A stretch of DNA of 45,876 nucleotides. Origin: a virus. Numbering within the stretch: the stretch's first letter is position 1; each line of letters starts with the position of its first letter. The DNA lies in IMG/VR virus record IMGVR_UViG_3300034198_023093, positions 1 through 45,876 of that record; one strand, 5' to 3'. Positions 8,467-35,818 of the stretch are shown one piece after another. A program made the translations under genes and the position numbers. The notes beneath the pieces were generated by a model, which worked only from the letters and a program-made list of their open reading frames with translations, had not been told where the DNA came from and ran no database searches.

Positions 8467-8930
8467 CGACTCAAATCTTAAATAGGCGTTCTGACCTAAT
8501 CTTTGATAGGCCGATCCCTACTCAGTTGGGTGTAGCAGAAATCGCGGTCAATACAAACCCAGCAGAGCCGGGGTTGTTTGTGCCTGATAGTACTCCGTCA
8601 CCCGGGACAGGTCTGATAAAGATCGGCCCTACAGCAATCGGAACCACTGCTCCTAACAGCACGCCGAGCGGGTATGGTTTTCTATCGAAAGGCGAGTCCT
8701 GGTTGGACACCTCAAGTACTCACATCTTGAAACTTTATGATGGAACTTCTTGGCAGAGTGTAAAGGCTGTTGTATCCATCAGCGCAGGTAAGGCTCCAAC
8801 TCCTGCAAACGGGCAAATGCACTACGATAAAACTGACACAAAACTTTACACTTATGAACAATCGACCAGCACCTGGCTCACTGACGTTTCAGTCGGAACT
8901 CGGCTGTTATTTGAAGCTAACTACAGGTAA
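8463..8930 (+). CDS. Tail protein with GTR-LFE C-terminal motif
   Basis: 155 aa from the ATG at 8463, in an ATGA overlap with the large tail gene; the longer frame from 8439 is less likely. The N-terminal part (NRRSDLIFDRPIPTQLGVAEIAVNTNPAEPG, in two pieces) resembles the start domain of phage fibres. The middle has TSWQSVK-type fibre repeats. The end VGTRLLFEANYR repeats the end of the 3150-3629 protein. Confidence 0.65.
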   Translation: MTTQILNRRSDLIFDRPIPTQLGVAEIAVNTNPAEPGLFVPDSTPSPGTGLIKIGPTAIGTTAPNSTPSGYGFLSKGESWLDTSSTHILKLYDGTSWQSVKAVVSISAGKAPTPANGQMHYDKTDTKLYTYEQSTSTWLTDVSVGTRLLFEANYR

Positions 8931-8937
8931 AAAGCCA

Positions 8938-9195
8938 TCACGAACCACCCTTAGTCATGAGGTAGTCCAGGATTCTATCCAATTTATTGTGAACCGCTTG
9001 TACCTCCCTTAAAAAATCTTCCTTGAGCACATAATCATGCAGTACAGTACTTTTTAAAGAGTCAAGCTCAGTTTCAATTTTCTCAAACCGCTTATCAAGT
9101 ACTTCTTTGGCTGATTTGTGCCATTTGATGATTGTTCCCAATGCGCCCACTGCTCCTGAAAATGCGGCGCCAGCAAAAACTTCTAGGGACATCAT
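8938..9195 (-). CDS. Small membrane-anchored coiled-coil protein (holin-like candidate)
   Basis: 85 aa, convergent with the preceding tail gene. Residues about 3-25 (LEVFAGAAFSGAVGALGTII) form one hydrophobic segment. The rest is a charged heptad-like helix (RFEKIETELDSLKSTVLH, EVQAVHNKLDRILDYL). One N-terminal membrane helix plus a coiled coil fits holin-like or spanin-like accessory proteins of phages. It lies alone on the - strand inside the tail module, as such genes often do in cyanophages. The function is inferred. Confidence 0.6.
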   Translation of the reverse strand: MMSLEVFAGAAFSGAVGALGTIIKWHKSAKEVLDKRFEKIETELDSLKSTVLHDYVLKEDFLREVQAVHNKLDRILDYLMTKGGS

Positions 9196-9272
9196 CTACG
9201 TGTTGTATCTCTTCTCTTATTCTAAAAGAGTGAATCAACTAAAATAGACCCTGACAATACCAGTGCTTTTAT

Positions 9273-9929
9273 ATGGCAACGCAGGTTCAGTTTCGCCGAG
9301 GCACCACTGCGCAAATTGCTGCTTTTGCAGGTACTCAGGCAGAAGTGGTGGTCGATACTTCGAAGACAACTTGTGTGGTTTGTGATGGTTCTACTCCTGG
9401 CGGTTTTCCGCTTTTACGTGAAGACGGAACTAACACAGCGCTATCTCCTGGTTCGTTAAACAGCTGCGCACTGAAATTTGCTAGTAACGCAGGCACGGGA
9501 CTCATCAGCCCAAGCACTGGAACCCTGGCATTAGTTGCTAGTGGTATTCAAGGTTTATTGGTCACCTCTTCAGGAGATTTAGCCATCCCTGGTAATGTAA
9601 CGTTAGCCGGAACCTTGAGTCTGGCCGGACCGGTCCTCAGGGCAGCTCCCTCATCTCAAACTACAAGTTTTACTGTAACGCCGTCCGTATCCAGATACGT
9701 GTGTAATGGAACAGGTACAATCACAGTCACACTTCCTAGCGCAGCTACGTATACTGGATTTGAGCTGCTGATCAAAACCGTTGCAGCACAGGCTGTAGTG
9801 TCGGGCTCCAGCGACGTTGTGCCTTTGACAGGGGGTAGTCAAGGCACTGCCATTCTAAGTGCCGCAGCAGGAAAATGGGCTTCTCTTGTAAGCGACGGAA
9901 CCTCTTGGATCATCATGAGTGGTAACTAG
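9273..9929 (+). CDS. Tail-fibre protein with mtd-like N-terminus
   Basis: 218 aa. It begins MATQVQFRRGTTAQ and continues GTQAEVVVDTSKTTCVVCDG, the 'RRGTTAQ ... E...DT' opening of phage fibre domains related to the major tropism determinant N-terminus. The middle is a Gly/Thr/Ser beta repeat (NVTLAGTLSLAG). The C-terminal half ends in a compact beta domain with GKWASLVSDGTSWIIMSGN, a common fibre tip. Probably a receptor-contacting fibre. Confidence 0.7.
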   Translation: MATQVQFRRGTTAQIAAFAGTQAEVVVDTSKTTCVVCDGSTPGGFPLLREDGTNTALSPGSLNSCALKFASNAGTGLISPSTGTLALVASGIQGLLVTSSGDLAIPGNVTLAGTLSLAGPVLRAAPSSQTTSFTVTPSVSRYVCNGTGTITVTLPSAATYTGFELLIKTVAAQAVVSGSSDVVPLTGGSQGTAILSAAAGKWASLVSDGTSWIIMSGN

Positions 9930-10964: not shown

Positions 10965-11156
10965 ATGAATACTATTGATGAATTAGAGTCCGATTTGCTT
11001 CAAAAATTAAACACCCTCGAAGTAGAGATTCGCTCTACAGAGAACAAACTTCTCTCATTGAAAGAGGTTTACCTGAAGACTTCGGGGGGTTTGGATGCCA
11101 TTACCTTCGTCAAAAGTCTTCCAGCTTTTAAGGATGAAGCCGCGACTCGGATTTGA
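10965..11156 (+). CDS. Small coiled-coil protein
   Basis: 63 aa, Leu/Glu/Lys-rich heptads (LESDLLQKLNTLEVEIR) predict a coiled coil. The last 19 bases lie antisense to the tRNA-Thr gene. Small coiled-coil proteins often follow lysis genes in phages. No family is recognised. Confidence 0.5.
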   Translation: MNTIDELESDLLQKLNTLEVEIRSTENKLLSLKEVYLKTSGGLDAITFVKSLPAFKDEAATRI

Positions 11157-11212
11157 ACCGAGGATAACCTGATTACAAATCAGGTGCAGTAGGCCAGCTG
11201 TGCTATCGCGGC
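11138..11212 (-). tRNA. tRNA-Thr (anticodon UGU)
   Basis: Reverse complement folds as a normal cloverleaf. The acceptor stem GCCGCGA pairs with TCGCGGC, the anticodon stem CCTGA pairs with TCAGG, and the loop TTTGTAA gives anticodon TGT with T33 in place. The T arm is CTCGG-TTCAAAT-CCGAG. No CCA is encoded. It reads ACA and lies five bases from a second tRNA, forming a pair against the direction of the surrounding genes. Confidence 0.92.
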
Positions 11213-11217
11213 AGTGG

Positions 11218-11300
11218 TAGGAGCGACGGGGGTCGAACCCGTACAATCACAGATTATCGGAGCTTAAATCCGATGCGTCTACCAATTTCGCCACGCTCCT
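11218..11300 (-). tRNA. tRNA-Leu (anticodon UAA)
   Basis: Reverse complement gives acceptor stem AGGAGCG/CGCTCCT, D arm with GGTAGACGC, anticodon stem TCGGA/TCCGA with loop TTTAAGC (anticodon TAA), a long class II variable arm, and T arm ACGGG-TTCGACC-CCCGT. The long variable arm fits leucine. No CCA is encoded. It reads UUA, a codon favoured in the AT-richer tail genes. Confidence 0.92.
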
Positions 11301-11370
11301 AAGCCCTGCAATCATACAGTACAGAACAGGTGTGTGCACCGTAGTTTTAGGTCAGATTCATGATGTGCTC

Positions 11371-11778
11371 ATGTTTCACTGCGAAAACGACCTTCTTGCA
11401 AACCTGATTGTTCTCAGCCCCAAGATCGCACGTAAACGATTTCGAGAGGGCATCTTCAAAGATTGGGAGTGGTGCTGTGCTTATTGTGACAAACAATTAA
11501 GCACGTCTGAAGCAACAATTGACCATGTGATTCCAAAACACAAAGGAGGCCACAGCACAAGGAACAACATGGTCTGCTCCTGTTCTGTTTGCAATAGGAA
11601 CAAAGGATCGCAGAACGTGTTTGAGTACATGAGCCCTGATAACGCTCATTATTCAGAGCAAAGGGTTGGTAAACTTAAAGAATGGATGGATCAGCGACCC
11701 TGTTCCGTAAGACTCTTTACAGAATTACCCGGAACGATTAGGTACTCCGATGAAGCAACAACAGCCTGGGCAACCTGA
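11371..11778 (+). CDS. HNH endonuclease
   Basis: 135 aa from ATG 11371; a GTG at 11332 would add 13 residues, but family members typically begin at the MFHCENDLLANL position. Motifs are CCAYCDKQL (first CxxC), then TIDHVIPKHKGG (the HNH His with zinc-finger support), then CSVCNRNKGS (second CxxC). This is the zinc-stabilised HNH fold, cutting DNA as a homing or packaging-type nickase. It lies next to tRNAs, where homing endonucleases often insert. The final stretch overlaps a 56-aa reading frame. Confidence 0.8.
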   Translation: MFHCENDLLANLIVLSPKIARKRFREGIFKDWEWCCAYCDKQLSTSEATIDHVIPKHKGGHSTRNNMVCSCSVCNRNKGSQNVFEYMSPDNAHYSEQRVGKLKEWMDQRPCSVRLFTELPGTIRYSDEATTAWAT

Positions 11779-11922: not shown

Positions 11923-12195
11923 ATGGCAGACAGAGCTAAAGCTAAACACTTGGCCAAGGAGCACATGAAGTGCAACTGCCCGCACAAGGCCCCCCCTGGC
12001 GACACCCATAAATGGGTGGTTAAATCCTGCCATGACGGTGAAGAGAAGATCGTCCGATACGGTCGTCGAGGCTATCAGGACTATACGCAACATCACGATC
12101 CTGAGAGGAGAAAGAACTTCCGAGCTAGGATGAGGTGTGATGAGCCAATGGATAAAAACAGTGCTCGTTACTGGGCCTGCTCAAAACTCTGGTGA
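11923..12195 (+). CDS. Conserved Cys-rich cyanophage-type protein
   Basis: 90 aa with a basic Cys/His-rich pattern: CNCPHK, KSCHDGEEKIVRYGRRGY, RRKNFRARMRCDE and a C-terminal SARYWACSKLW. I recall this RARHKC/ARYWxCK layout from conserved hypothetical proteins of cyanophages. Possibly zinc-binding and virion-associated. Not named. Confidence 0.7.
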   Translation: MADRAKAKHLAKEHMKCNCPHKAPPGDTHKWVVKSCHDGEEKIVRYGRRGYQDYTQHHDPERRKNFRARMRCDEPMDKNSARYWACSKLW

Positions 12196-12200
12196 TCTAG

Positions 12201-12671
12201 ATGGCTAAGACGACAACCGACAAAACAACTCCCTGCTACTGCCACTTGACACAGTGTTTGCGGGATTCTGTTCACGTTTACCACCAGACCCAGCTAGTCC
12301 ACTGGAATTTGATGGGCAGCAAATTTTATGAAATTCACTTGTTGACTGAACGAATTTACCAGGAGATGGAGGAGGGTAACGACACGATTGCCGAGCACAT
12401 CCGATCTCTTGATATCGGTACACCTAAAACGGTCGAAGACTTGGTATATTCAACTATGCCAGAGGTTCCTCTGGAAAACTGTTTTAATCAAGATCCAATT
12501 ATTCTCCAGCTCGCAACCAACCATAATCTACTTGCTCTAAAGTTTGAAGAGCTGATTAAGATGTCGGAACAGCTGGGAGATCAATTAACACTCGATCTTG
12601 GCGTCGAGCGTGGGCGTGTGCACAAGAAAAATCAGTGGCTGCTAAAGTCAAATTTAGATTACAAGAAGTAA
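12201..12671 (+). CDS. Dps-like ferritin
   Basis: 156 aa. The core QLVHWNLMGSKFYEIHLLTE and GNDTIAEHI is the Dps (DNA-binding protein from starved cells) signature. The ferroxidase ligands sit at H34, H46, E50, D61 and E65, exactly the 12-4-11-4 spacing of E. coli Dps (H51, H63, D67, D78, E82), with one conservative D-to-E change. The C-terminal helix VHKKNQWLLKSNL also fits. Dps oligomers oxidise Fe(II) with peroxide and store iron, and many bind DNA. No long Lys-rich DNA-binding tail is present. It lies five bases from the next fibre gene. Confidence 0.75.
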   Translation: MAKTTTDKTTPCYCHLTQCLRDSVHVYHQTQLVHWNLMGSKFYEIHLLTERIYQEMEEGNDTIAEHIRSLDIGTPKTVEDLVYSTMPEVPLENCFNQDPIILQLATNHNLLALKFEELIKMSEQLGDQLTLDLGVERGRVHKKNQWLLKSNLDYKK

Positions 12672-12675
12672 GTAA

Positions 12676-13023
12676 ATGTCTAACGCTCCTATTTTTGTTG
12701 ATACTCTTTTTTGCTACCCTGCGGCACTTACAGCCACGGGTACAACATCTATCTGCGTAATCGCTGACCAAGACAACGCAGGCTCAGTGTCTACGGCATT
12801 CCAGGTTACAGTCGCTTCGATCGGAACTTCTGTTATTGTTCGTTTTGAAGGTAGCTTAGATGGGACAAATTTCTTTGCTTTAGCAGCAACTGATACAACG
12901 ATTAGTAGTAACGGAACCACAGGTTACAATTTTCCTAACTTTCCTCTTAAAGCTGTTCGTGGGAGGTTGGTAACAATTACTACCGGAACACCCACTGTTA
13001 CTTTTGTTATAGCTGCCAAGTAA
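12676..13023 (+). CDS. Small beta-sandwich fibre protein, paralogue of 17005-17349
   Basis: 115 aa. Shares with the 17005 gene the layout F-Y-P near the start, then VIVRFEGSLDGTNFFAL, NFPLKAVRGRL and a final VTFVIAAK. The Thr/Val-rich beta structure is typical of fibre or decoration modules. The five-base gap after the Dps gene implies one transcript. Function inferred from context. Confidence 0.65.
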   Translation: MSNAPIFVDTLFCYPAALTATGTTSICVIADQDNAGSVSTAFQVTVASIGTSVIVRFEGSLDGTNFFALAATDTTISSNGTTGYNFPNFPLKAVRGRLVTITTGTPTVTFVIAAK

Positions 13024-13731: not shown

Positions 13732-14523
13732 ATGGCCCGCAAATTTTTTACTGACATCGACATGCAGTCGGTGTCAAAAGTTGTCAACCTTCCCAGCCCT
13801 ACAGCCTCCGGTGATGCCGTCCCGAAGTCCTATGTGGATTCTGCGATTGAGGGCCTGGCCTGGAAAGACTCGTGCCGAGTTGCTTCTCAAGCGAACCTAA
13901 GCATCGCCACCCCCGGCGCAACAATTGATGGGGTGACGATGGTCTCACAAGATCGTGTGTTGGTTAGAGCCCAGACAGCAGGTGCTGAGAACGGGATTTA
14001 TGTGTGGAACGGTGCTTCGGTTGCGCTGACGCGCTCACTGGACGCTACTACATTTGACGAGCTGGAACAGGCGGTAGTGTCTATCGAGGAGGGCACTAGC
14101 GCTAGTGCCACGTACCGACAAACGGCGGTAAATGGGACGCTCGGAACAACAACAATCACTTGGACTACGTTTGGAACCGGTGCGCCAGCCGCTAGTGAAA
14201 CCACCTCCGGTATTGCTGAGCTTGCAACTCAGGCTGAAACTGATGCAGGTACTGATGATTTACGAATTGTTACTCCACTAAAGCTGACAAACTGGTCTGG
14301 TCGGATCAAGAAGTTTTCAGCTAACATCGGAGATGGTAGTGCCCTTACCTACACAGTGACGCACAGCCTGAACACCCGCGATGTGATTGTTCGCGTATTC
14401 CCTAACAGTGGGCAGTTTGATGACGTTGAGGTTGATGTGCAGCGTACTTCTGTGAACGCTGTCGCCTTGGTGTTTGCAACCGCACCAGCAACCAACGCCT
14501 ATCGCGTTGTGGTGATTGGCTAA
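13732..14523 (+). CDS. Tail-fibre protein
   Basis: 263 aa, with a GAGGT site before ATG 13732. MARKFFTDIDMQSVSKVVNLPSPTASGDAVPKSYVDSAIEGL contains the fibre spacer P-x-A-x-G-D-A-x-x-K-x-Y-V-D. ENGIYVWNGASVALTRSLDA follows, then ETTSGIAELATQAETDAGTDD and a C-terminal tip ending AYRVVVIG. All are standard long-fibre modules. The stop overlaps the next start by one base. Confidence 0.75.
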   Translation: MARKFFTDIDMQSVSKVVNLPSPTASGDAVPKSYVDSAIEGLAWKDSCRVASQANLSIATPGATIDGVTMVSQDRVLVRAQTAGAENGIYVWNGASVALTRSLDATTFDELEQAVVSIEEGTSASATYRQTAVNGTLGTTTITWTTFGTGAPAASETTSGIAELATQAETDAGTDDLRIVTPLKLTNWSGRIKKFSANIGDGSALTYTVTHSLNTRDVIVRVFPNSGQFDDVEVDVQRTSVNAVALVFATAPATNAYRVVVIG

Positions 14524-15729: not shown

Positions 15730-16893
15730 ATGAGCGCAAATACCCCCTCGACCACACTTCTCGCGACCCGCGTCGACCTGGCCGACACGTTTCGTCTCCA
15801 CAGCAGACCCGAGGCCTCCAAGACAATCTACTTAGATTTCAACGGACACACAACTACTGGCACGTCATGGAACGTGCAAGCAAAGCGCGAAGCAATCAAT
15901 ACACCGATATTTAATTCCGATGCCAACACAGCAGCGTTCAGTGATGCCGAACTAGAGCGAATTCAGTTCATTTGGCAGCGAGTTGCTGAGGATTTTTTGC
16001 CGTTCGGCGTCAACGTCACCACCGAAGACCCTGGGGAGGAGGCACTGGTCAATACTGGAGGCGAAGATGATCAATGGGGAGTACGCGCCGCGATTGGGGG
16101 AACCAATAAGGATTGGTTAAACAACGCGGGTAGTGGTGGTATTTCTTATTACAAAGGGTTTGGTAGCGCCCGGTGCGGCCCAGTTTTTGTGTTTACTGGG
16201 AATCTCAGCAAAGGTAACGAGAAGAACACTGCTGAAGCAATCAGCCATGAGGTAGGCCACTCTCTTGGCTTGGTCCACGATCATACTGTTAAATCTGATT
16301 ATTTCAGCGGGCAGGGGACCGGCCCCACAGGTTGGGCACCTATTATGGGCAACGCTTATGGAAAACCTCTCAGTCAGTGGAGTCACGGCGAGTTTAAAGG
16401 TTCCGTCAATCAGGAAGACGATCTAGCAATCATTGCTTCACCCCAGAACGGCTTGGGCTTCCGGTCTGACGATTTCGCTGATTCGATCACCAAGGCCACA
16501 CCGCTTATCGGCCCAAGCCTGAACCAGTTTGGAATTATTTTTACTCGTAATGATACCGATTGGTTTAGCTTTGTTACAGGAACAGGCACCGTAAGTCTGG
16601 TCGTTGAAAACGCCACCCAGGCTTGGATCAGTGACGGGTCTGGGTATTTCACTAGCACCTTGTTAATTGGGCGTGGGCCGAACTTAGACATTGAAGCCAA
16701 AGTCTTTACCACTGACGGCACCCTGGTCGCCGCCAATAATTCCAAAGGCACTGGGGCCAGCTTCGATCTGACCTTGACCGCTGGAACTTACTATCTTCAG
16801 GTCGACGGTGTGGGTTTTGGTGATCCTCTCAAAAATGGATATTCCGATTACGGAAGCCTTGGAGGGTATTTAGTGTCTGGCAGTTTGGCGTAG
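15730..16893 (+). CDS. Metzincin zinc protease with C-terminal PPC domain
   Basis: 387 aa. The catalytic motif HEVGHSLGLVHD (H173, E174, H177, H183) is the full metzincin signature, and M206 in APIMGNAYG fits the Met-turn. The first 170 residues have the matrixin-type beginning (KTIYLDFNGHTTTGTSW, AFSDAELERIQFIWQRVAEDF). Residues about 255-387 fit a bacterial pre-peptidase C-terminal (PPC) domain (DTDWFSFVTG, FDLTLTAGTYYLQVDGVG). This family is usually a secreted bacterial or cyanobacterial protease, not a phage protein. Coding style does not differ clearly from neighbours. It may act on host surface protein during adsorption. Confidence 0.8.
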   Translation: MSANTPSTTLLATRVDLADTFRLHSRPEASKTIYLDFNGHTTTGTSWNVQAKREAINTPIFNSDANTAAFSDAELERIQFIWQRVAEDFLPFGVNVTTEDPGEEALVNTGGEDDQWGVRAAIGGTNKDWLNNAGSGGISYYKGFGSARCGPVFVFTGNLSKGNEKNTAEAISHEVGHSLGLVHDHTVKSDYFSGQGTGPTGWAPIMGNAYGKPLSQWSHGEFKGSVNQEDDLAIIASPQNGLGFRSDDFADSITKATPLIGPSLNQFGIIFTRNDTDWFSFVTGTGTVSLVVENATQAWISDGSGYFTSTLLIGRGPNLDIEAKVFTTDGTLVAANNSKGTGASFDLTLTAGTYYLQVDGVGFGDPLKNGYSDYGSLGGYLVSGSLA

Positions 16894-17829: not shown

Positions 17830-18213
17830 ATGCCTACACGCACTGTTAAAGGAACTCTTGACAATCTGCGAGTCAGCGGTGGCAGTGAAATTACGTACCT
17901 TGGCCCTACAAAATTTAATGATCGTGGGGAACTGTTGCGGGCGTTCAGAGTAACTCCTGCGAGCACTGGCAGCATCATTTTCACCGTGGACAAATCGGAT
18001 TCAGTTAACACTATTCAGATCTTTCAAGAAGATTCTTTTAACGGATCTGCTTCGCCCACTGGGTACGTACCGTTTTTTAACATTGGAAAGGCAGGTAAAG
18101 GCAAGGGCGTGGTAGCAGCAACCGTGACAAACGCAGCAAAAACCTATATTGTCATGATTAGGTTTGACGAATACAGCAATGCCGCCTACAACGGTAGCGT
18201 TCAAATCCCCTGA
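17830..18213 (+). CDS. Small beta protein, PPC-like
   Basis: 127 aa. TYIVMIRFDEYSNAAYNGSVQIP at the end (in two pieces) and IIFTVDKSDSVNTIQIFQED resemble the edge strands of PPC domains, such as those in the protease upstream and in the - strand 448-aa protein. Otherwise unassigned. Six-base gap after the NblA-like gene. Confidence 0.55.
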   Translation: MPTRTVKGTLDNLRVSGGSEITYLGPTKFNDRGELLRAFRVTPASTGSIIFTVDKSDSVNTIQIFQEDSFNGSASPTGYVPFFNIGKAGKGKGVVAATVTNAAKTYIVMIRFDEYSNAAYNGSVQIP

Positions 18214-18910
18214 ACCCTATAAAAGTCCTTTTTTAAGCGACTTAGTAGTTGAGCTGATACAGAAGCACGGGTACCCCCGAACCTATTGTGGGGACGAACG
18301 GTTTGCTTCTTATCGTACGGAGCACGGTGAGTGGCGAATTGGGTATGGTAGCAGCCGCATTGGAAAGACATGGGCAGGTCCATCCACAAAAGCCAGTAGA
18401 GATGAGATAAACCAACAGCTAGTAAAGGACTTAGAGGTACTAGCAGAGAAGATCTCTAGCTACGTCATCATGCCGCTGAGCCCTAAAAAGCGCGGCGCTC
18501 TCCTCAGCTACGCACACAGCGTTGGATTAAGTTACTTTAAAGACAGTCCCCTACTGGAGTTGATAAACTCACGCGCTACGAAACTCGAGATTATCAAGGA
18601 ATGGAGTCCGCTGATCAATCCTTTGTATCGGTTTGCTAACGAACACGTACAGAAAAGAAGACAAGTTGAGCTGAACATGTACCTCTCTACTGATACGGAG
18701 GTACACGGATTTGTCAGACACGTTTGTAAATCTGATCAGTGTTTGCTCACAATCGGTGAGAGTTTCATTGGCACACCTAACCAAGTTAGAGCTTTAGAGT
18801 ATCTTGAAAAGGAACTAAGCACGTTAGATCCGTCCGGAAAAGTACTGAAGCAGTTCTTCCGCCACTGGGGCAAACCGCACAAAGGAGTTGCCTCATTCAG
18901 ACCAGCTTAG
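18179..18910 (+). CDS. GH24-like lysozyme with altered catalytic positions
   Basis: 243 aa from ATG 18179, overlapping the previous stop by 35 bases. The GH24 layout is visible: SYRTEHGEWRIGYGS, DEINQQLVKDL, LSPKKRGALLSYAHSVGLSYF with a following S-x-L-L, EIIKEWSPLINPLYR and QKRRQVELNMY. In T4 lysozyme numbering, D20 becomes T and T26 becomes R, and the Glu is not at position 11 but a D-E pair lies one to two places away. The C-terminal 80 residues are extra. Either an endolysin with a shifted active site or a domain kept for binding. Confidence 0.6.
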   Translation: MPPTTVAFKSPEPYKSPFLSDLVVELIQKHGYPRTYCGDERFASYRTEHGEWRIGYGSSRIGKTWAGPSTKASRDEINQQLVKDLEVLAEKISSYVIMPLSPKKRGALLSYAHSVGLSYFKDSPLLELINSRATKLEIIKEWSPLINPLYRFANEHVQKRRQVELNMYLSTDTEVHGFVRHVCKSDQCLLTIGESFIGTPNQVRALEYLEKELSTLDPSGKVLKQFFRHWGKPHKGVASFRPA

Positions 18911-31792: not shown

Positions 31793-32239
31793 TTGAATGA
31801 GGTAGCTGAAGGCATCGGACGCCACTGCATCAGTGATCTGTACGGCTGCAGCCATAAGAAGCTCGACGATGAATCTTTCATCCGAGAAGCTTTGGTTCAA
31901 GCCGCTGAACGATCTGGAGCGACCCTACTCAGCCTCACCTCACACAAGTTTCAACCACAAGGCGTGACAGCTTTAGCCCTTTTGTCAGAGAGTCACATCT
32001 CCATTCACACCTGGCCAGAACTAGGTTATGCCGCAGTAGACGCGTTCACGTGTGGAACTCACACCGACCCAAAAAAGGCTTGCGAGCACCTGGAGACCAC
32101 CCTCGAAGCAAAAACTGGAACTGAGACCTTACTCGAAAGAGTTCTACCTACACCTTCAATGCTATATTTAGGCGTAGGTCAAATGAAGGGTTTGACCGAT
32201 CTCCCGGTGACGACCGGTGCCAGCAGCTCTACCGATTAA
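31793..32239 (+). CDS. speD: S-adenosylmethionine decarboxylase
   Basis: 148 aa from TTG 31793, the only start in frame after an upstream stop. HCISDLYGC, SHKFQPQGVTALALLSESHISIHTWPE (split here by function) and GYAAVDAFTCG are class 1B SpeD motifs. The self-cleavage site is E66-S67. S67, H72 and C87 keep the spacing of the bacterial enzyme (S63, H68, C83 in Thermotoga), so the pyruvoyl group should form. It makes decarboxylated SAM for spermidine synthesis. Known as a cyanophage auxiliary gene; polyamines help DNA packing and translation. Confidence 0.9.
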   Translation: MNEVAEGIGRHCISDLYGCSHKKLDDESFIREALVQAAERSGATLLSLTSHKFQPQGVTALALLSESHISIHTWPELGYAAVDAFTCGTHTDPKKACEHLETTLEAKTGTETLLERVLPTPSMLYLGVGQMKGLTDLPVTTGASSSTD

Positions 32240-34477: not shown

Positions 34478-35818
34478 ATGGCAACGGTCATCGATTCGGT
34501 TGATTTAAACAGGTACGAGGTCATTAAGACCCGGCCCATGAATACAGAAGCAACAAACGTTGCTATCACTGGACAACCGATTCAGGTGACCACTGACCCT
34601 GGCATTAGCAACAAATCAACTGCAGTCGATGCTTTTGGTAGAGCCCGGGTTTCCAACCCTTTGACTCTTTTTGATTCTAGTCACAGGTATCGAGACAACA
34701 ACCTGTGGAGCAGCCTTACAGCCTCAGGAGGGACTGCAACGTTTAACGCAAACCAAGGATTAATTGATTTGGCTGTAACTACTACATCAGGATCCAAAGT
34801 CTATAGAGAAACTACAAAAGTGTTTTCATATCAGCCAGGCAAAAGTTTGTTAATTATGACAACTTTTGTCCTAAATGCAGCAAAAACAAATCTCAGACAA
34901 AGAGTAGGTTACTACGGAGCAGCAAATGGTTACTTCCTGGAGCTAGATGGAACAAGTGGCAACACGCTTGCATTGGTAGAAAGAAGTAGTGTAAGTGGAT
35001 CGCTAGTTGAAACAAAAGTTTCATCTGCTAACTGGAACGTCGATACGATGGATGGAACTGGGCCATCAAAAATTACTCTAGGTATTACTAAAGCTCAGAT
35101 TTTATGGATGGATGTTGAGTGGTTGGGATTAGGTACTGTTCGCCTTGGTTTTGTTATTGACGGTAAGTTTATTCTCTGCCACCAGTTTCATCACGCAAAC
35201 TTGGTTAGTTCTACTTACATCACTACAGCTTCTCTTCCTATTCGTTACGAGGTTGAGAATACAGGAACAACTTCAGGTAGCAGCACTCTGAAACAAATCT
35301 GTTCTACCGTAATCTCAGAAGGTGGTTACGAGCTTCGCGGACTTCAGCAAAGCATTGGAACTTCGATTACTGCTCCAGCCACTTTGTCTACTGCCGGAAC
35401 AAAATATCCTGTTATTTCAATTCGATTAAAAAGTTCTCCAAATCGTTTAGATGCGATTGTTATTTTGACTGCTTTGTCTTTCCTTGGACTCTCGAATAAC
35501 GCTCACTACAACTGGTCAGTTGTTGCAACAGGAACAACCACCGGAGGAACCTGGGTTAGTGCAGGAACAGATTCAGCTGTAGAATACAATTTAACTGGAA
35601 CTAGTTTTTCAGGAGGACGTATTCTTGCACAGGGTTATTCCAGTGCTTCAAACCAGTCTTCAAATCCGGTTGACATCCTAAAAGAAGCTCTTTTTAAATT
35701 TCAATTAGAAAGAGACGGTTTTGCTAACACTGCATATGAGCTTACGTTAGTTGCGGCTGGAAGCACAACTAACGCAAGTCTCCATGCATCCGTAGACTGG
35801 GAAGAAATTAGCCGTTAA
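34478..35818 (+). CDS. Cyanophage-type virion protein
   Basis: 446 aa. DAFGRARVSNPLTLFDSSHRY, LRQRVGYYGAANGYFLELDG, KAQILWMDVEWLGLGTVRLG and STLKQICSTVISEGGYELRG form a beta-rich structural protein that I recall from many cyanophage genomes, where it is a virion component of unknown role. It is alone on the + strand, far from the tail module, and AT-richer than the capsid gene. May be a separate fibre or decoration. Confidence 0.7.
   Translation: MATVIDSVDLNRYEVIKTRPMNTEATNVAITGQPIQVTTDPGISNKSTAVDAFGRARVSNPLTLFDSSHRYRDNNLWSSLTASGGTATFNANQGLIDLAVTTTSGSKVYRETTKVFSYQPGKSLLIMTTFVLNAAKTNLRQRVGYYGAANGYFLELDGTSGNTLALVERSSVSGSLVETKVSSANWNVDTMDGTGPSKITLGITKAQILWMDVEWLGLGTVRLGFVIDGKFILCHQFHHANLVSSTYITTASLPIRYEVENTGTTSGSSTLKQICSTVISEGGYELRGLQQSIGTSITAPATLSTAGTKYPVISIRLKSSPNRLDAIVILTALSFLGLSNNAHYNWSVVATGTTTGGTWVSAGTDSAVEYNLTGTSFSGGRILAQGYSSASNQSSNPVDILKEALFKFQLERDGFANTAYELTLVAAGSTTNASLHASVDWEEISR

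Follow-up and report, generated by a model that had tools for sequence, protein, structure and literature searches.

Dps proteins are described both in cells and in phages. According to extracts of PMC7762939 and PMC6675082, canonical Dps uses H2O2 and cyanobacterial Dps protects against light and peroxide, and an extract of PMC7354516 places host dps among the strongly induced genes during infection by another phage. In the excerpted text of PMC6675082, site B of the ferroxidase centre is coordinated by position 67 via a water molecule; in Nostoc Dps4 the Asn67-Asp68 pair takes no part, and the protein uses O2 to oxidise iron, with no indication that H2O2 is used when O2 is present. Phage-encoded DPS is reported in the 'Gratiaviridae' and in 36 other gut phage genomes, with an antioxidant proposal identical to the one considered below (PMC8008677, partial text), and in Lactobacillus phages (PMC6669764, partial text). 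Further phage proteins with a Dps fold are found in BFVD. Among them, A0A6J7XDU5, A0A6J7WPK9 and A0A6J7WIS1 are long proteins named 'prohead protease' that contain a Dps-fold region, so that Dps and capsid assembly may be connected in other phages.

The Dps gene analysed here is contained in a viral stretch of 45,876 nucleotides (positions 1 to 45,876 of IMG/VR record IMGVR_UViG_3300034198_023093), hereafter the window. The major capsid protein, encoded at 528-1670 on the plus strand, has a single match among 50,697 phage records, Synechococcus phage S-EIV1 (69.4%), and S-EIV1 counterparts exist for the capsid, primase, exonuclease, polymerase and other genes of the window. By these matches, the window virus is S-EIV1-like. 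A gene above the psbA family cut-off is present in four of 26 related records. Since the capsid matches S-EIV1, whose host is Synechococcus, and related records carry psbA, a cyanobacterial host is likely; the virus probably infects freshwater cyanobacteria, in line with the cyanophage setting of an earlier note on this DNA. The window also contains a gene encoding an S-adenosylmethionine decarboxylase (phrog_3125; 31793-32239, plus strand), which S-EIV1 has too, and, within its replication-gene half, a plus-strand gene (34478-35818) for a virion structural protein that shares 65-68% identity with proteins of Puniceispirillum phage HMO-2011 and of cyanomyoviruses.

The gene at 12201-12671 (plus strand, ATG to TAA) encodes a protein of 156 aa, which matches Pfam Ferritin PF00210 (E 2.4e-9, 37.7 bits, cut-off 24.5) and phrog_3636 'DNA binding protein' (7e-17). 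Against solved chains, phmmer at E<=0.01 finds 49 distinct sequences, almost all of which are named Dps or Dps-like; the best solved Dps scores 3e-14 and E. coli Dps (1f30) 0.0055. The protein falls under the curated cut-offs of the NCBIfam Dps equivalogs NF006975 (51 of 114 bits), NF041388 (37.2 of 170) and NF052461 (18.4 of 300). The AlphaFold2 monomer model, built with 45 sequences (pLDDT 87.5, pTM 0.83), shows four long helices, the second and third of which are separated by an additional short helix. The top-ranked structure is P. aeruginosa PA0962 Dps (8ff9) in Foldseek and T. elongatus Dps 2c41 in VIA-align (Z 19.7, rmsd 2.0, 150 of 156 residues aligned), and the Dps four-helix fold can be assigned to the predicted monomer with confidence. 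Because the Pfam, phrog_3636 and phmmer matches agree with the predicted fold, the resemblance to Dps goes far beyond chance and, on profile and model, the product is a Dps-family mini-ferritin. Both the identification made in the earlier note and, for the monomer, the structure prediction that it proposed for a dodecamer thus come out in favour of Dps. The gene is under purifying selection, with a median omega of 0.066 across 361 close, non-independent pairs, similar to the 0.070-0.091 of the neighbouring genes in close pairs; close pairs were taken since dN/dS against the window was saturated (five of 103 comparisons computable).

The window protein shows all five canonical ferroxidase ligands, two histidines and three acids: H34, H46, E50, D61 and E65. 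This 12-4-11-4 arrangement, that of E. coli Dps, was correctly placed in the earlier note. It agrees with the centres numbered 51-63-67-78-82 in the excerpted text of PMC6675082. The full set is not general, and one of the five, E50 (hereafter the fifth ligand), is gone in about half of the relatives. In a set of 94 distinct open frames from viruses, H34 is conserved in 91 of 91 readable rows, and H46, D61 and E65 in 92 of 92 each. Aspartate at position 61, which corresponds to 78, means that a His-type centre was not found in any of the 92 readable rows; in Nostoc Dps4 and TeDpsA, as given in part of the literature, that type of centre has His78, whereas the phage relatives keep D61. Position 50 contains E in 40 rows, Q and G in 24 each, N in two, and K and D in one each, a distribution that leans to E, G and Q because one of the two search peptide patterns demanded one of these residues. 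An acidic residue is thus found in 41 of 92 viral rows vs 36 of 38 cellular relatives (Q in the other two); the viral rows are related, some may be near copies or partial, and among them are the sequences of the window, S-SRM01 and Gilson as well as one of the S-EIV1 type. A D or E occupies position 51 in all 27 viral rows with G, N or K at position 50, in 16 of the 24 with Q50 and in one of the 40 with E50, so that 84 of 92 rows have a carboxylate at position 50 or 51. In the alignment, D/E51 in place of E50 looks like a shifted carboxylate.

Since position 50 is non-acidic in 51 of 92 rows, the function under constraint across the family may be something other than ferroxidase chemistry. The cage might have been kept as a metal-binding or scaffold structure with relaxed catalysis, the complete site of the window being an ancestral remnant, and the spread of residues at position 50, set against the nearly uniform acid of cellular Dps, is what such relaxation could produce. 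We consider this improbable: the other four ligands never vary, most rows keep a carboxylate at one of the two adjacent positions, and Nostoc Dps4, in the portion of PMC6675082 cited above, still oxidises iron with Asn67-Asp68, so loss of E50 in the relatives need not mean loss of activity. A more specific suggestion, which we advance only tentatively and judge unlikely as it stands, is that S-EIV1-like cyanophages carry a virus-specific Dps whose second iron site is being retuned, with the site-B carboxylate at E50, lost, or at D/E51, in the manner of the O2-using Nostoc Dps4, and that these natural variants would differ in oxidant preference, possibly suited to the oxygen made by the infected cell. 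Of the features described here, the drift at this fifth ligand most deserves further attention.

The Dps gene is contained in a run of genes on the same strand from capsid to lysozyme. Upstream are a gene encoding an HNH endonuclease (11332-11778, plus strand), a conserved neighbour, and a gene encoding a small DUF5754 protein (PF19058, phrog_7595; 11923-12195, plus strand), which adjoins Dps and whose stop lies 5 nt before the Dps start. Directly downstream, a plus-strand gene for a small protein without family match (12676-13023), whose ATG lies 4 nt beyond the end of the Dps ORF, opens a variable fibre-like stretch. This stretch contains a virion-protein-like gene (13732-14523, plus strand; phrog_2647 'head decoration') and, at 15730-16893 on the plus strand, a gene encoding a protein with a Reprolysin-like metallopeptidase domain (PF13688). 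The gene encoding a phage lysozyme (PF00959) is at 18164-18910 on the plus strand. Two tRNA genes on the minus strand, tRNA-Thr (TGT) and tRNA-Leu (TAA), occupy 11138-11300 within the plus-strand run, between a C39-peptidase-like gene and the HNH gene. Because the run has structural and lysis genes, its expression is probably late.

A DUF5754 homologue accompanies Dps in 66 of 77 loci; of the remaining 11, several start within Dps or next to it. The marine group usually shows the order HNH, Dps, DUF5754 and then lysozyme, and no homologues of the downstream fibre genes were detected at the marine Dps loci. The genes that constantly accompany Dps are therefore those for DUF5754, HNH and lysozyme, and its association is with this segment and not with the fibres. 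In one marine locus read (L053), a gene encoding a 2OG-Fe(II) oxygenase (8734-9528 of that locus) is on the opposite strand and adjoins the DUF5754 gene that comes after Dps.

These neighbours bear on whether the protein is part of the particle. A virion location had been suggested from the position of the gene in a fibre module; Dps does lie within a structural, probably late run, but the fibre part of that argument is weak. As a virion component, the Dps cage would sit on or in the particle and carry iron or protect the tail or fibre region, in the manner of the Ferrojan horse. The location among structural genes is consistent with this, the idea of phage-borne iron is already in print, and three of 14 BFVD matches at E<=0.001 are labelled 'prohead protease'. 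We nevertheless regard it as unlikely, because the Dps of marine relatives remains with HNH, DUF5754 and lysozyme where fibre-gene homologues were undetected, the ferritin-like gene of S-EIV1 lies away from virion genes, beside ATP sulfurylase, and the Pfam profile search detected nothing beyond the Ferritin domain in the 156 aa.

The N-terminus of the protein was inspected for a Lys/Arg-rich tail, to which PMC7762939, in its excerpted text, links DNA affinity. Residues 1-11, the short tail before helix 1, contain two Lys (K3 and K8) and one Asp, and the C-terminus ends in K155-K156. Compaction or protection of host or phage DNA, by binding as in E. coli, has family precedent (PMC7762939, partial text), and these four lysines could contribute to it. 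With so little positive charge in the tail, and with the C-terminal KK replaced in the marine group, this role appears improbable, and little in the sequence speaks for the DNA condensation raised previously. The window protein also shows a C12-x-C14 motif and C19 (residues 12, 14 and 19, encoded within 12234-12257). Among 91 readable rows, C12 is present in 63, C14 in 51 and C19 in 68; the marine group lacks both C12 and C14, and most of it keeps C19.

A first scan of IMG/VR gave 77 Dps loci, most of them with 53-91% identity and some partial; in a profile-derived scan, 151 matching stretches encode Dps relatives, of which 80 were kept. Together with the S-EIV1 ferritin-like gene and the Dps of other phages, these 151 stretches show that the description of Dps as rare in phages was overstated. 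As to a search of cyanophages for Dps at the same place, the IMG/VR relatives share the segment, but the S-EIV1 copy is elsewhere. Records selected by capsid show Dps in eight of 22 long ones; of at least 591 capsid matches, 80 loci were retained, and the 22 are the longest contigs in that set. Fourteen of the 22 have about 20 kb or more past the capsid and were checked for lysozyme, the downstream boundary of the count; one with Dps (G054) has no lysozyme and was dropped, and Dps is present in six of the 13 records with both capsid and lysozyme. The three window-like records among these 13 (capsid 94-96%) all have Dps, and no other ferritin was detected by PF00210 in the seven Dps-less records. 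Dps is therefore an accessory, dispensable gene in the S-EIV1-like lineage. A universal core gene, as could be suggested by an initial count that had Dps in 25 of 26 records, was rejected, because that count was biased by records mostly chosen for having Dps. Another 23 records were reached via DUF5754 and show no Dps nearby: four have an S-EIV1-type Dps elsewhere and many others are short fragments.

Concerning the origin of the gene, a first peptide-pattern scan of cellular contigs gave no close cellular donor. A second scan found 38 cellular Dps, the best of which share 29-31% identity along most of the query; by record title none of the 38 is cyanobacterial, which, with short peptide patterns, is compatible with a distant cyanobacterial donor. 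In the tree, a branch separates the late-run Dps from the S-EIV1 type. The S-EIV1 type is nested within the late-run sequences, weakly supported and on a branch of length 4.84, and long branches are flagged as meeting. As this placement of the S-EIV1 type is unreliable, a common origin of both types is no more than possible.

The reading we favour, and hold to be rather probable, is that of a Dps-type ferroxidase cage that would remove Fe(II) and peroxide late in infection of a cyanobacterium. Dps would be expressed late, together with the structural and lysis genes of its strand, and its subunits would assemble into a 12-subunit cage with Fe(II) bound at the dimer interfaces. The cage would oxidise Fe(II), for which canonical Dps usually takes H2O2, and store Fe(III) inside, which may reduce the damage that hydroxyl radicals do to phage DNA and proteins as an iron-rich, photosynthetic host is taken apart in the light. 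This detoxification is suggested because of the fold, the five ligands, the invariance of four of them, the purifying selection, the cyanobacterial setting and the spacing of 4-5 nt within the run, together with the published H2O2 use of canonical Dps, the light and peroxide protection by cyanobacterial Dps and the induction of host dps in another phage infection. Against it are the seven of 13 whole-interval records in which Dps is not found, the 51 of 92 rows with a non-acidic position 50 and the missed NCBIfam equivalogs. Phage Dps genes are usually treated as oddities; here Dps is traceable across a large lineage of aquatic viruses, with gains or losses, a fixed place in a structural and lysis run and natural changes at one catalytic position. 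This fixed place, the natural variants and a cultured phage, S-EIV1, with its own ferritin-like gene make the benefit of iron and peroxide handling to a phage testable.

The literature searched, including the excerpted text of PMC9611531, gave no paper on the Dps of S-EIV1-like phages; the S-EIV1 genome paper may treat its ferritin gene. The window Dps is like the cellular Dps 2c41 and 8ff9 in four-helix fold, five ligand positions and length; it differs in being virus-encoded, in an identity of 24-29%, in the N-terminal CxC and C19, and in H66, a position at which R is found in 36 of 38 cellular rows. The 'DNA-binding ferritin-like protein' of S-EIV1 (AHV82153.1) belongs to the same virus lineage and is of Dps type with the H, H, D and E ligands, but it is only 23% identical, has 184 aa with a long proline-rich N-terminus and G at position 50, and its gene adjoins ATP sulfurylase, whereas the window gene sits in the structural run. 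Synechococcus phage S-SRM01 and Streptomyces phages such as Gilson also encode Dps with the H, H, D and E ligands conserved, at 27-28% identity, in unrelated phages and other neighbourhoods. The N50-D51 of some viral relatives is similar to the Asn67-Asp68 of Nostoc Dps4 (NpDps4) as given in the partial source. Virus-borne Dps is thus already known, and the window Dps adds to it a conserved, sometimes absent and probably late gene with a varying iron site.
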